From a virus: a DNA stretch of 64,000 bases. The notes under the pieces are model-generated. The model was given only the letters and a program-made list of their open reading frames with translations, was not told the DNA's origin and ran no database searches. Position 1 is the stretch's first letter; each line of letters starts with the position of its first letter. Shown here one piece after another: positions 4,304 to 63,768 of this stretch. The position numbers were made by a program, and so were the translations under genes. The stretch is from IMG/VR virus record IMGVR_UViG_3300032236_001416, positions 1 through 64,000 of that record. One strand, written 5' to 3'.

Positions 4304-5131
4304 TTATTCGTACAATGATTTAACTTCGTCCTCATCAGCAACAGCTTCAACACTTTCTTCTGTGGCAGTTTCTGTTTCTGAAACTTGCGGATTCAAATTC
4401 TGTTCTAATGCACTGGCAAAATCAACAGCATATAAATTGTCTGTTAATTGTCCACAAGTTGATATTGGATTCAACCAAATGTCATATCCCATATCTTTAA
4501 TTTTATGGCATAGAACAATACTTTCATTCAAAAATTGACCGTCTTTAATCTCATATTCAAAAACGTTTTTAATTTCATTACCAGTATTGTTGGTAATTGA
4601 AGTACTACCATCAAGCAACTCTGTCAAAACTTTATTACTAAGTTTCATAAAACCAGTAGAAGCGGATTTAACTTTCATCAAACCTTCTTCGTTCTTTTCA
4701 ATGTTCCCTACATCCATATCCAAATCAAAAACAACATTACCTAATGTTTTCTTGACTACTGGTACAGCAATAACATCTTCTTTGTTTAGAACACAAGAAA
4801 CAAATGTTACAGGATCCCATCCCAAATCATCATTAATAAAAACGATAGAATCATATTCCACATCTTTTAAATTATTTAACAATTCATTTTTAGCCATTGG
4901 AACAGAATCGATGTTGCTTATAAAAATTGGAAATACTTTGATGTTATTAAATAAAGCCAATCTTATGGTCGTTGCTAGACTATTCACATATAGTGATTTG
5001 ATTGAATTATTTTTTGTGTTAGTCAAAACAAAAACATTTTTAAACTCTGGTAGAGTTTGTGTTTGTTCTTGTGTTGTTTCTTGAACATCTTCTACTTGTT
5101 CAACTTTATCATTTTTTCTGTTTGTTTTCAT
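4304..5131 (-). CDS. GT-A-like glycosyltransferase paralogue, possibly degenerate
   Basis: A 275-residue protein. After a charged, Gln/Glu-rich N-terminal extension (about residues 1-28) it follows the same fold order as the next gene upstream (5141-5896): LYVNSLATTIRLALFNNI, then SIVFINDDLGWDP, then a VIAVP and ASTGFMKLS segment. The metal-binding DxD of the sister protein appears here as NDD (100-102), and the C-terminal Cys-Asn-His of the sister is Cys-Gly-Gln. The C-terminus is again acidic (EESVEAVADEDEV). It probably arose by duplication and may have lost or changed catalysis, or acts as a partner of the sister enzyme. Confidence 0.6.
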   Translation of the reverse strand: MKTNRKNDKVEQVEDVQETTQEQTQTLPEFKNVFVLTNTKNNSIKSLYVNSLATTIRLALFNNIKVFPIFISNIDSVPMAKNELLNNLKDVEYDSIVFINDDLGWDPVTFVSCVLNKEDVIAVPVVKKTLGNVVFDLDMDVGNIEKNEEGLMKVKSASTGFMKLSNKVLTELLDGSTSITNNTGNEIKNVFEYEIKDGQFLNESIVLCHKIKDMGYDIWLNPISTCGQLTDNLYAVDFASALEQNLNPQVSETETATEESVEAVADEDEVKSLYE

Positions 5132-59096: not shown

Positions 59097-59639
59097 ATGG
59101 CCGCAACGATTAGTGCCTTTAAATCTAGTTTTACAACCGACTTAGCAAGACCGAGTCGGTTTGACGTTCTTATTCCTGTGCCTTTTATTTTAGTTGGTTC
59201 TCCAATAGTCGATAGTAGAAATTTAACTTATCGATGTGAAAATACACAATTACCAGGTAGAACGATTGCCACATTGGATCAGAAAACATATGGTCCAATT
59301 GAAAAGTTTCCTTATCTTGCTACTTACAACGATATTGATTTATCTTTTTATGTAGATGATGATATGAAACAAAAGTACTTATTTGATGCTTGGCTTGGTT
59401 ATATCAATACAAGTTCAACAAATAACTTTCTGTACAAAGATGAATATGCGACAACATTGACTATTAATCAGTATAATGTATCAAATCAAAAAACATACTC
59501 TGTTGATTTATTTGATGCATTTCCTATAGCCATAAATCAAATGGATTTGGATTGGAGTAATACAGATGCGGTACATAAAATATCTGTTACATTTGCCTAT
59601 ACTTACTGGAAGAACGATTCGTTACTCAGTAATTTTTAA
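59097..59639 (+). CDS. Tail-tube-fold protein (gp19 family; candidate gp54 initiator)
   Basis: A 180-residue protein aligning along its length with the T4 gp19 family: a DLARPSRFDVLIPVPFI opening, CENTQLPGRTIATLDQKTYG, DDMKQKYLFDAWLGYINTSS, and INQMDLDWSNTDAVHKISVT, FAYTYW at the end (T4: 'LQLDWDSNNEIQTFEVTLALDYW'). It is either the tail tube protein or the tube-fold baseplate initiator (gp54). I favour an initiator because it lies with gp4, gp26 and gp51, away from any sheath gene. No sheath gene is in the window to decide. Confidence 0.72.
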   Translation: MAATISAFKSSFTTDLARPSRFDVLIPVPFILVGSPIVDSRNLTYRCENTQLPGRTIATLDQKTYGPIEKFPYLATYNDIDLSFYVDDDMKQKYLFDAWLGYINTSSTNNFLYKDEYATTLTINQYNVSNQKTYSVDLFDAFPIAINQMDLDWSNTDAVHKISVTFAYTYWKNDSLLSNF

Positions 59640-59657
59640 TTATTAGAAGGAGTTATT

Positions 59658-60383
59658 ATGGCTTTACCAAAAATTGATACGCCAACGTATGAATTGACTT
59701 TACCATTATCAAAAAAGAGTATAAAGTTTAGACCATTCTTGGTCAAAGAACAAAAGAATCTTATGATGGCAATGGAAGATGACAACAAAGAATCGATTGA
59801 AAGGAACATTAAACAAGTTCTGACAAATTGTACTTTAACAGAAGATATAAACATTGAAGATTTACCTGTTACTGATATTGAATATTACTTTATCAACTTA
59901 CGTGCAAGGTCTGTAGGTGAGATTGTTGAAAACAAATATGTTTGTACAAATGAAGTAGATGAGAAACAATGTGGTAATAAAATGGAAGTTAAAATTAATT
60001 TGTTAGACATTCAGGTTGATGTTGATCCTTCTATGACTAATGATATTCAGATAACTGATAAAATTGTGTTGAAAATGAAATATCCTAAGTTTTCAATCAT
60101 TGAGAAGTTATCTAAAAAAGAATCGGCTGTTGAAGTTGCTTTTGATATTATGATTGATTCTATTGAAAGTATCTATGATGGCGAACAATTCTATTATGGT
60201 CACGAAACACCTAGAGAAGAAATGATGCAGTTTTTGGAATCATTGAGTCAAGACCAATTTTCTAAACTAGAATCTTTCTTTGAAAACCTACCAAAAATCA
60301 ACAAGAAAGTTGATATGAAGTGTTCTAAGTGTGGATTTGACCACACTATGAATTTGGAGGGACTCGAAAATTTTTTCGGGTAA
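59658..60383 (+). CDS. 26: Baseplate hub assembly protein gp26, likely tail-chaperone frameshift donor
   Basis: A 241-residue protein of the T4_baseplate (gp26) family: YELTLPLSKKSIKFRPFLVK, EQKNLMMAMEDDN, then DIEYYFINLRARSVGE. A likely zinc site is made by Cys96/Cys105 and the CxxC at 222-225. The gene has a strong ribosome-binding site (GAAGGAG). It ends Asn-Phe-Phe-Gly-stop. The last Phe codons are part of T_TTT_TTC, which could shift ribosomes to the -1 frame and give a 305-residue gp26-gp51 fusion. In T4, gp26 acts in hub assembly; the fusion here is inferred. Confidence 0.87.
   Translation: MALPKIDTPTYELTLPLSKKSIKFRPFLVKEQKNLMMAMEDDNKESIERNIKQVLTNCTLTEDINIEDLPVTDIEYYFINLRARSVGEIVENKYVCTNEVDEKQCGNKMEVKINLLDIQVDVDPSMTNDIQITDKIVLKMKYPKFSIIEKLSKKESAVEVAFDIMIDSIESIYDGEQFYYGHETPREEMMQFLESLSQDQFSKLESFFENLPKINKKVDMKCSKCGFDHTMNLEGLENFFG
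60371..60377 (+). promoter_or_regulatory. Candidate -1 ribosomal frameshift site (T_TTT_TTC)
   Basis: In the gp26 frame the codons are AAT TTT TTC GGG TAA. The heptamer T_TTT_TTC allows both tRNA-Phe to re-pair one base back. Reading then continues with CGG GTA ATA TTT TGT TAT GAT through the gp51 frame with no stop until 60572-60574. It lies four bases before the gp26 stop. I see no obvious stem-loop or pseudoknot immediately downstream. Confidence 0.65.
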
Positions 60384-60574
60384 TATTTTGTTATGATAAT
60401 TTGAAAAACTATTACAGGACTAATTTCTCACTAATGCAACATCATAAGTATTCTTTAACTGAATTGGAAAATATGATACCATGGGAAAGAGACATTTATA
60501 TTAATTTGTTAGTGCAATACATTGAAGAAGAAAATGAAAAAATAAAACAACAAAAAGCAGCAAGTAAACGATGA
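60377..60574 (+). CDS. 51: gp51-like baseplate hub assembly frame, probably reached by frameshift
   Basis: This open frame encodes 65 residues plus stop: FCYDNLKNYYRTNFSLMQHH, KYSLTELENMIPWERDIYIN, then a charged helix (EEENEKIKQQKAASKR). This matches the conserved gp51 pattern of marine T4-like phages. The first in-frame ATG (60434) lies in the middle of the conserved region and has no ribosome-binding site at usable spacing (the nearest AGGA is 14 bases away). The conserved residues before it (YDNLKNYYRTNF) can only be made by frameshift from gp26 or from a non-standard start. The stop overlaps the next ATG (ATGA). Confidence 0.72.
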   Translation, partial: RVIFCYDNLKNYYRTNFSLMQHHKYSLTELENMIPWERDIYINLLVQYIEEENEKIKQQKAASKR

Positions 60575-62055
60575 ACACACCAAGTACAGGTCTTCAACAA
60601 TATGGTGAAGGATTACTAAACAAATTTCAATCTAGTAAGATTGGAGAAATGTTTGGTGGAAAACCACGTAAAAAATATGATGATGATAACAGTAGAGAAT
60701 CTGTACAAAGTGGTAATAAAAAAGATGCAAAGTATACTACTGTTCCACAAGGAAAAGTTGAGAGATTAAAAGTAAACGAAACTGAATCAGACGTTTTGGC
60801 AACTATGTACAACTTTATGTCCAAAAATTATAAAAAAGATTTGGATAGATTAAAAAAAGAAAAGAAACATAGAAAAGAAATTGATGATTTTGAATATTTA
60901 AAAAATAAACAGTTGATTGCCGCACTAACTGGTAAAAAAGAAAAAACGAAAGATACAAAAAAAGGTAAAGGATTTAGTTTTGGTTCTTTGCTTAAAACTG
61001 GTCTTGCTATTGGTGGACTTCTTCTTATAGAAAAAGCCTTTGCTAAAATGGCTGAAATTGGCAAAGTTTCAGACGTTGCTGATGTATTAAAAACTACCAA
61101 GAAAAATGATTCGAATTCTCTTCCTGGTACACAAACCACACCTAGTTCTATGGATACAAGTCCGATGCGTACTCAAGGTATGTCAGGCAAAAGTCCTTGG
61201 GCTACCAAAGAAGCAAAAGAAGCTTTTGATTTTTTTATTGGCAAAGGTTATACCAAAGAAGCTGCAGCAGGTATTGTAGCAAGTTTGCAGGCTGAATCTG
61301 GTGCACATTTGGACACTAAAGCTCTTGGTGACAATGGTAAAGCTAGAGGTATCGCTCAATGGCAAGAAGCACGACAAAAGACTTTTAAAAAAATAGTTGG
61401 TAAAGATGTATTTGATGCATCACGTTTAGAACAATTAGGTCAAGTTGATTATGAACTTAAAAATACACACAAGAAAGCGGGCATAGCTGTAAATCAAGCT
61501 AAAACTGCTGGTGAAGCAGCTGTTATAATTGACAAAGATTATGAACAAAGCAAAGGCCTTCATACGAAAAAACGTATGGGTATTGCACAAGATTTGTTAG
61601 GTGCTTTTGGTGGTAATAAATCTATGAATATGGCTAATACACCAACAACTGTTCCACCAGTTCAACAACAAAGTAAAGTGTCAGGTGTTACAAAGTCATC
61701 AACACCAGTTTCAGCAGTAACAAAAACTGTAAAAAAAGAACCAACGATTAATACCAATATTAAACCTAGAAATCAACAAGATTTTAATAAATTAGTTACA
61801 CAAAGTATAGAAGAACAAAATCGTAAATCAGAAATGAGGTCAATGTCTGATTTGTTGAAAGAACAAGAACAAAAAAAATTAGTCAAACCTGAATCAAAAA
61901 ATCTTGTTCCTGATAAAAAAACATCTATGATGGATCGTATGAAACAACTTATCAGTAGTAATATCATTGTTATAGAAAAAGAAAAAATTGTTACTGAAGT
62001 GGCTGAATCAAATGACACTTCAATATTGTTTAATAAAATACAACAGCTGAGTTAA
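60571..62055 (+). CDS. Tail hub/tape-measure-like protein with tail-lysozyme domain
   Basis: A 494-residue protein. Residues 67-83 (KVNETESDVLATMYNFM) begin a charged helix. One hydrophobic segment lies at about 137-158 (LLKTGLAIGGLLLIEKAF). Residues 208-330 (SPWATKEAKEAFDFFIGKGY, AAAGIVASLQAESGAHLDTK, ARGIAQWQEAR) match the phage tail lysozyme (Phage_lysozyme2) domain, with Glu242 the likely catalytic acid. The rest is Gln/Ser/Lys-rich linker and C-terminal helix. It probably digests peptidoglycan during injection, taking the role of the lysozyme that is missing from gp5. It shares its N-terminal module with the next gene. Confidence 0.75.
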   Translation: MNTPSTGLQQYGEGLLNKFQSSKIGEMFGGKPRKKYDDDNSRESVQSGNKKDAKYTTVPQGKVERLKVNETESDVLATMYNFMSKNYKKDLDRLKKEKKHRKEIDDFEYLKNKQLIAALTGKKEKTKDTKKGKGFSFGSLLKTGLAIGGLLLIEKAFAKMAEIGKVSDVADVLKTTKKNDSNSLPGTQTTPSSMDTSPMRTQGMSGKSPWATKEAKEAFDFFIGKGYTKEAAAGIVASLQAESGAHLDTKALGDNGKARGIAQWQEARQKTFKKIVGKDVFDASRLEQLGQVDYELKNTHKKAGIAVNQAKTAGEAAVIIDKDYEQSKGLHTKKRMGIAQDLLGAFGGNKSMNMANTPTTVPPVQQQSKVSGVTKSSTPVSAVTKTVKKEPTINTNIKPRNQQDFNKLVTQSIEEQNRKSEMRSMSDLLKEQEQKKLVKPESKNLVPDKKTSMMDRMKQLISSNIIVIEKEKIVTEVAESNDTSILFNKIQQLS

Positions 62056-62058
62056 AAA

Positions 62059-63768
62059 ATGGATTATACACGTTCCTCGTTAATAAGAAGTAAGAGTATA
62101 TCGGAATTAATGTTCGAACAGGACAGAACTTTCCGTGAAGCTTTATCCGACAAAACCAAAGCTCGATTGATGGGTATAAAAGAGACATTTACTCCTCTTA
62201 ATATTGTTAGAATGTTGACTGGTTCTGGTGGTATTGGAAAGTCTATAAGGACTGTAGCTGGTCGTGCTATGGGTTATTCCGAAAGAGATATTCAATACTT
62301 TGGTGGTTACAAAAGAAAACGTTCTATCTATGGTGCTGATAGAAGTAGAGTTCCAGCTGGATCAAAATCTCCAGTTAAAGTAAATGATAGTACAGCCGAT
62401 ATTTTGGCTAAAATGTACAATCTAATGCGAAAGATTGATGAAGATAATACCAGAAGATATGAGAAAGAACAAAATTTTGAAGAAGAAAATATATTAGAAG
62501 ATAAAAAACGCCATGAAAAAATTTTAGATGCTTTAGGTGTAAAGAATAAAAAAGTACCAGAAAAGGTAGAAAAACCAAAAGAAGAAACAGATGAGAAAGA
62601 TGGTATATTAGTTAAAATATTCTCTAGTGTATTTGGTGTTTTTAAGAAAGTGTTTTCGTTCTTTAAGGTTATTGGAGAAGGTTTACTTACAATATTAACA
62701 ATTGGTGGATTAGTTAAAACATTATCTTTGATTGGAGATATGTTTAAAATGCCAATAAAACTTTTTTCTAATATATTGATATCAATTTTACCTACTTTGG
62801 CGAGACTTTTATTTGGAATTTTTAGAGCTCCATTTACTGCACTTGCTACGGGAATTTTTGCTTCATTAATTGCTATACAAGATAGAGATTTTACAAAAGG
62901 TTTTGATTTTTCCAAATATAAAAATCAGTTACCTGGACAACAATTCGTTCAATATGATAAAGATACTGGTAAACCAATTGGTTTTCCTGTTGGAAAAGGT
63001 ATGCCAACATCTATGTTGAATGAATTTGGAAACAAAACTGAAAATGATACACCATATGATGATGAAGCTTTTTATAAACTAAAAACTGGCCAAAAAAATA
63101 TCTATCCTGTTCCAATAATAGGAACAGCTAGAGAAATACAATTAGCTCTAAGTGATGAAGAAGCTTTGCAATTATTTAAATCATATCAAATATTTGAAGA
63201 AGCACATAAACGATATCTTGCGGCCGAGGCAACTGGAAATAAAGAATCTATTATCAATGCAAAATCTGTATTGGCACAAGTAGAATCTGAAGTAAATGAT
63301 ATTTTAGCTAGACATACAAGAAACACATACAAAAAATATCAAAGTGGTGATATAGGAGATATTTACAAATTATTCACAGAAAAATCTTATTCTAAACAAC
63401 AACTCGCTATTGATAGTATTTTAAGAACAACTATTGGAAATAGCATGGGAGAAATCCAAAAAGAAATTGGTGATAGAATAAACGATGTATCTAAAAGTAT
63501 GGGAATTGATACTGCTAAGAATACATTAGGAAAAACCATAGATGATATAAGTAATGAGTTTAAAAAATTAGAACCTATAATCGAAAAAGTAAAAAACATA
63601 CCTAACATTATGGATTCAGATGAAGTTAAATCTCTTGAGGAATATTTTGAAAAGCAAAAATCTAGTGTTATGAATTTAAATCAAAAAAATACTCCACAAC
63701 AACAATCGAATCTAAGAACTATTGAAATACGTGATTTGAAATTACTTGAATCTTCTAATTCAAAATAG
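62059..63768 (+). CDS. Tape-measure-like tail protein
   Basis: A 569-residue protein. A basic N-terminal half contains KVNDSTADILAKMYNLM (107-123), matching the preceding protein, then charged coiled coil. Residues 184-275 are strongly hydrophobic (FFKVIGEGLLTILTIGGLVK, LFSNILISILPTLARLLFGI), and the C-terminal half is helical and charged. This is the usual layout of tape measure proteins, and the size is near T4 gp29 (590 residues). Its place after the gp26/gp51 pair also fits. The assignment rests on layout and order, not on a clear gp29 motif. Confidence 0.6.
   Translation: MDYTRSSLIRSKSISELMFEQDRTFREALSDKTKARLMGIKETFTPLNIVRMLTGSGGIGKSIRTVAGRAMGYSERDIQYFGGYKRKRSIYGADRSRVPAGSKSPVKVNDSTADILAKMYNLMRKIDEDNTRRYEKEQNFEEENILEDKKRHEKILDALGVKNKKVPEKVEKPKEETDEKDGILVKIFSSVFGVFKKVFSFFKVIGEGLLTILTIGGLVKTLSLIGDMFKMPIKLFSNILISILPTLARLLFGIFRAPFTALATGIFASLIAIQDRDFTKGFDFSKYKNQLPGQQFVQYDKDTGKPIGFPVGKGMPTSMLNEFGNKTENDTPYDDEAFYKLKTGQKNIYPVPIIGTAREIQLALSDEEALQLFKSYQIFEEAHKRYLAAEATGNKESIINAKSVLAQVESEVNDILARHTRNTYKKYQSGDIGDIYKLFTEKSYSKQQLAIDSILRTTIGNSMGEIQKEIGDRINDVSKSMGIDTAKNTLGKTIDDISNEFKKLEPIIEKVKNIPNIMDSDEVKSLEEYFEKQKSSVMNLNQKNTPQQQSNLRTIEIRDLKLLESSNSK

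Follow-up and report, generated by a model that had tools for sequence, protein, structure and literature searches.

In phage lambda the tail assembly chaperone is made as a short protein, gpG, and a frameshift-extended one, gpGT, from a locus upstream of the tape measure gene, as in HK97 (gp14), and the lambda slippery site is G_GGA_AAG. Phage P2 makes gpE and gpE+E'; the P2 E gene carries an annotated -1 site, T_TTT_TTG, late in the coding sequence of the short form and is followed by the tape measure gene, in line with the preliminary description of the locus studied here. P2 resembles our locus in the type and placement of its slip site, and seven sense codons separate its heptamer from the stop codon as against one in the window, the stretch of 64,000 nucleotides of viral DNA analyzed here. 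The tail assembly chaperone (TAC) locus of phage Adele (Vandenendeviridae / Andersonviridae, PMC12846349) likewise belongs to a myovirus and, as in the window, has a conserved poly-T -1 site and an extension formerly annotated as a separate gene. It differs from the window in family and in motif, which is GTTTTT (PMC12846349).

For T4-like phages, a TAC assignment was published by Vladimirov et al. 2022 (Virology 566:9-15), as cited in PMC12846349 and PMC10885494. According to these citing papers, TAC-N genes of T4-like phages have poly-T slip signals (PMC12846349), and some T4-like phages do not frameshift but have one short gene and one long, fused gene (PRFect, PMC10885494). From the citations and from homology we read this short/fused-long pair as probably T4 gp26 and gp51 (PF12322 / phrog_150, plus phrog_634 in the long form). 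The published pair, as these papers present it, would share a common design with the window, in that one chaperone occurs in a short and a long version; T4 and Aeromonas phage 25 encode the long form in a second gene, whereas the window has one copy and a predicted frameshift. T4 gp51 is essential and is needed for assembly yet absent from the particle, and the T4 literature gives its function as unknown. Historically gp26 and gp51 have been described as hub component or hub assembly chaperone, and reports conflict on the presence of gp26 in the hub (PMC3004832).

The window encodes a gp26 homologue whose 3' end reads GAA AAT TTT TTC GGG TAA, with the TAA at 60381-60383 (Table 1). Slipped reading at the heptamer gives, by conceptual translation, NFF-RVIFCYDNLKNYYRTNF..., with a stop ending at 60574. 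The -1 extension matches phrog_634, a family named 'baseplate hub assembly catalyst', and also the far end of phrog_150, indicating that phrog_150 contains natural fusions. The -1 frame contains no ATG, GTG or TTG before the slip. Between the slip and the conserved block it has one start-type codon, a TTG at 60401 (the Leu of YDNL), with no ribosome-binding site. The preliminary description had reported the codons at the end of gp26, the heptamer within them, the 65 open codons that follow it and the lack of a usable gp51 start before the conserved part, and all of these held. Its label 'gp51' for the extension stood with regard to homology with T4 gp51, of which the extension covers only the C-terminal part.

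Table 1. Features of the gp26 locus and of the neighbouring genes in the window.
Feature	Position	Strand	Details
Tail tube-like protein, directly upstream	59097..59639	+	phrog_45 9e-38, PF23849 3.3e-07
gp26 Shine-Dalgarno AAGGAG	59647-59652	+	good ribosome-binding site before gp26 ATG
gp26 homologue, putative short chaperone form (TAC-N / G-like)	59658..60383	+	241 aa if terminated; PF12322 3.2e-60, phrog_150 1.2e-65
Predicted frameshift product (TAC-NC / GT-like)	59658..60574	+	305 aa, conceptual translation
Shine-Dalgarno-like GGAGGG, proposed 5' stimulator	60356..60361	+	~10 nt upstream of heptamer
Slippery heptamer T_TTT_TTC	60371..60377	+	read directly; in frame 0 of gp26
-1 frame extension ('gp51', putative C-terminal domain of long form)	60377..60574	+	65 codons plus stop; phrog_634 8.1e-30
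Lysozyme-like-domain gene, tape-measure candidate	60571..62055	+	494 aa; PF18013 1.6e-22; phrog_9570 tape measure 5.7e-28
Protein with hydrophobic segments, tape-measure candidate	62059..63768	+	569 aa; no family match

The AT-rich window has many in-frame motifs of the X_XXY_YYZ type (94 in 20,524 codons, three of them TTTTTTC), so the heptamer motif alone is weak evidence. We fetched 80 relatives of the window, 80 of P-SSM2 and 15 of Kuttervirus, together with isolated phages. TTTTTTC stands exactly at 123 of 143 distinct junctions, and TTTTTTG or TTTTTTA at two more; the remainder are one junction with a premature stop and 17 of Ackermannviridae type, with ATTTTC or CTTTTY. Across the window's clade and the cyanophage clade, the two Phe codons are TTT TTC in all 141 distinct gp26 genes, and the codon before them ends in T in 141/141, though it is itself AGT, AAT, TCT or GCT. 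At the other conserved Phe codons of gp26, the commoner codon accounts for 53 to 91% at seven of eight and for 99% at one. The canonical heptamer is thus conserved beyond amino acid need, as a -1 frameshift site would be. T_TTT_TTN was also found in KVP40, CC2 (an Aeromonas phage), YB07 (a Stenotrophomonas phage), Desulfovibrio 7757, Melnitz-1, S-MbCM7, D527, RHph_I34, XG4 and Angelvirus, and the slip site recurs in P-SSM2 and S-PM2. The heptamer goes beyond chance because it is invariant in 141 relatives, recurs in distant families and coincides with the switch in codon variability described below; the slip site is real and ancient.

Ackermannviridae have an open -1 frame after gp26 and no canonical heptamer, with ATTTTC or CTTTTY lying near the stop. 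The -1 frame of GG32 encodes phrog_9633 (unknown function), with a weak match to phrog_634. A scan that used the D527 protein as query yielded no relatives. The premature stop mentioned above occurs in a contig near-identical to the window (L002), where TAG replaces GAG eight codons before the usual gp26 stop and the heptamer downstream is intact; it is probably a sequencing error or a dead variant.

Among the relatives compared, gp51 lies in the -1 frame at every closed locus. Upstream of the heptamer, the most variable sites are the third bases of frame-0 codons; downstream, beginning with the very first codon, they are the third bases of -1 frame codons. Throughout the window's clade the first -1 codon is CGG, CGA, CGT or CGC, always Arg, and the frame-0 codon varies between Gly, Glu, Ala and Val. 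The switch falls exactly at the heptamer, ahead of the gp26 stop and of any possible start, and the open -1 frame is under coding constraint directly after the heptamer.

These data bear on the possibility that ribosomes terminate at the gp26 TAA and begin anew within a few nucleotides (TAATG, TAAxxATG or TTG), producing a separate small gp51 as current annotations assume. Cyanophages fit such a route in that an ATG lies 5 nt past the start of the stop codon in 64/64 distinct loci and public records list gp51 as a separate gene, and TAATG is present in 6 of the 50 distinct loci of the window's clade. However, 25 of these 50 loci have no ATG, GTG or TTG before the conserved block, 19 have only GTG or TTG and 6 have an ATG, and none of the post-stop ATGs of either clade has a Shine-Dalgarno (SD) sequence. 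The cyanophage ATG sits inside a hairpin stem, T4 gp51 is continuous across the junction, and reinitiation leaves the invariant TTT TTC and NNT codons unexplained. Nor can it account for the -1 constraint, because the constrained codon precedes the gp26 stop and any start. A separate gp51 with its own start was rejected as the main route on the strength of the invariant heptamer, the start survey and the codon-position signal, and we regard reinitiation as very unlikely.

The -1 extension is intact in the public records of Sf-CH1b, Aeromonas CC2 and S-MbCM7, and gp51 is unannotated in all three. As judged from sequence, the comparison strongly indicates that the 'gp51' of cyanophages and of many other T4-like phages is a frameshift extension of gp26, not a separate gene, in which case many public annotations split or omit it. 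The preliminary description had expected the heptamer and the open -1 frame to persist in relatives where flanking codons vary, and they do: both are kept while the preceding codon changes. Of the findings that it had named as contrary, a gp51 start with an SD was not seen in the window's clade, where some ATGs without one lie just past the stop, and heptamer loss was not seen in any relative of the window or cyanophage clades.

T4, stated earlier to have separate genes 26 and 51, carries two gp26-domain copies: gp26 has PF12322 only, and gp51 has PF12322 plus a phrog_634 tail. When T4 gp51 was aligned with the predicted fusion (hhalign), the match covered columns 19-285, through the slip junction (E 7.6e-08). 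Thus, at the sequence level, a short form and a C-terminally extended long form share an N-terminal domain. In searches of whole records, the gp26 domain occurred twice in T4 and in Aeromonas phage 25, and once in each of 14 records that have the -1 arrangement. A single copy is present in P-SSM2, S-PM2, D527, GG32, RHph_I34, Ds23CZ (Limestonevirus), 207E48.1, XG4, AsFcp_1 and long contigs of the window's clade. Within the window's own record, a 67.7-kb fragment, there is one copy and not the two full-length PF12322 copies of the T4 arrangement. The KVP40 record itself notes that the similarity of its small gp51 to T4 gp51 is limited to 40 residues at the C-terminal end of the latter. Because of the copy numbers, and because T4 gp51 aligns end to end with the fusion, the window's 'gp51' appears to be no more than the C-terminal extension of a chaperone of the G/GT type, the long form of which T4 encodes in a gene of its own. 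The proposal that gp26 and gp51 are joined by a -1 frameshift as a G/GT-type pair thus gains support from conservation, copy number and the homology of T4 gp51 with the putative fusion.

Genes for head closure and a DNA end protector lie further upstream of gp26, beyond the tail tube-like gene. On the other side, the ATG of the lysozyme-like-domain gene overlaps the extension stop (ATGA), and the phrog_9570 match of this gene spans residues 212-408, which take in the lysozyme domain and the residues immediately following. It is plausible that gp26 and its extension directly adjoin the tape measure gene, the next gene being a candidate. Two consecutive candidates (494 and 569 aa) occupy 60571-63768 of the window, a place filled in S-PM2 by a single 1167-aa gene that immediately follows gp51.

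We also considered whether the conserved slip site serves mainly a non-chaperone job, such as setting the level of a downstream gene or joining two hub subunits. The historical hub labels of gp26 and gp51 and the conflicting reports on gp26 (PMC3004832) would suit such a role, as would the structural comparisons, which gave no significant match to a chaperone fold. Predicted structure models had pTM values of 0.81 and 0.85. Against solved structures, the gp26 model had no significant chaperone match (HK97 gp14, 2ob9: probability 0.38, E 3.1) and the gp51 model had no tail chaperone among the matches listed; 2ob9 and 3fgx were weak, non-significant fold matches. In a viral structure library, the named significant matches were mostly gp26/gp51-type baseplate proteins, and a gp26 profile search of solved chains gave nothing meaningful. 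Against a non-chaperone job stand the gene order (tail tube, gp26, extension, tape-measure candidate), the short-plus-long product design, the absence of gp51 from the finished T4 particle (PMC3004832), the lack of a gp26 relative among the solved chains, and the TAC assignment reported by the citing papers (PMC12846349, PMC10885494). Such a job is therefore highly improbable as the main function of the site. A chance homopolymer run or an assembly error mimicking a slip site, which the many in-frame heptamers of the window might suggest, is refuted by the comparative data, as the site is invariant in 141 distinct sequences and found in isolated phages of several families, and its probability is negligible.

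We conclude that gp26 very probably encodes a tail assembly chaperone that is produced in a short form and, through -1 frameshifting, in a long form. Most ribosomes would stop at the TAA, releasing the short form of 241 aa (TAC-N, the counterpart of lambda gpG and P2 gpE). In a minority, the tRNA-Phe in the P and A sites on TTT TTC would re-pair one base back, probably aided by the GGAGGG upstream. These ribosomes would read the -1 frame to its stop and yield a product of 305 aa that carries the 'gp51' domain at its C-terminus (TAC-NC, the counterpart of gpGT and gpE'). The two forms would assemble together on the tape measure protein, bring in tail tube subunits at the hub and then depart. 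In T4 two paralogous genes would supply the equivalent forms, gp26 the short one and gp51 the long one. The chaperone interpretation, put forward in the preliminary description as a role shared with other tailed phages, appears right but is not new as far as the citations show, because the central idea, and such protein pairs, were described for T4-like phages in 2022 (Vladimirov et al., as cited in PMC12846349 and PMC10885494).

Two sequence elements may aid slippage. An SD-like element lies upstream of the slip in both the window's and the cyanophage clades: its pairing with the anti-SD is -5 kcal/mol or better in 94% of 127 relatives. The mean of the best pairing is -7.9, compared with -5.7 for synonymous shuffles, with only 43 of 64 loci beating their own shuffle mean, and the conserved Glu codon at this site is GAG in 65%, compared with 9-32% at other conserved Glu codons. 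Likewise, a hairpin beginning 5 nt past the heptamer was found in nearly all marine cyanophage-type loci, and 98% of 47 had z below -2. An example lies at 4718-4755 of one such locus (L081), with others in L097-L176, and the stem encloses the ATG annotated as the gp51 start. No stable 3' structure was found at the window's own site (z -0.59 and +1.15 in two calculations). A conserved 3' hairpin as a universal stimulator was rejected, pairing in the window's freshwater clade being 44%, no better than in slid controls. We found no report in the literature of an SD-like element 10 nt upstream or of a 3' hairpin confined to marine cyanophages.

With regard to origin, the T4-type copies form a group distinct from the single-copy genes in an unrooted domain tree (support 90/88), and the direction of duplication is not obtainable from an unrooted tree. 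Duplication in the T4 lineage is the simpler direction, because the single-copy frameshift form is spread across families. We lean slightly towards a history in which frameshifting is ancestral for the T4-like chaperone (Kyanoviridae, Schizotequatrovirus, Ceceduovirus, Angelvirus, Menderavirus and others) and T4 genes 26 and 51 arose when a single duplication fixed the short and the long product as separate genes. In this history the aids to slippage would differ by lineage, with the SD-like element in the window's and cyanophage clades, the 3' hairpin restricted to marine cyanophages and, in Ackermannviridae, a slip of non-canonical type. P-SSM2 and KVP40 are possible test systems for the role of T4 gp51 in hub and tail assembly.

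Elsewhere in the window, positions 11929-39248 hold several very long, repetitive, tail-fibre-like frames on the minus strand, and long open frames are present there on other strands or frames too.
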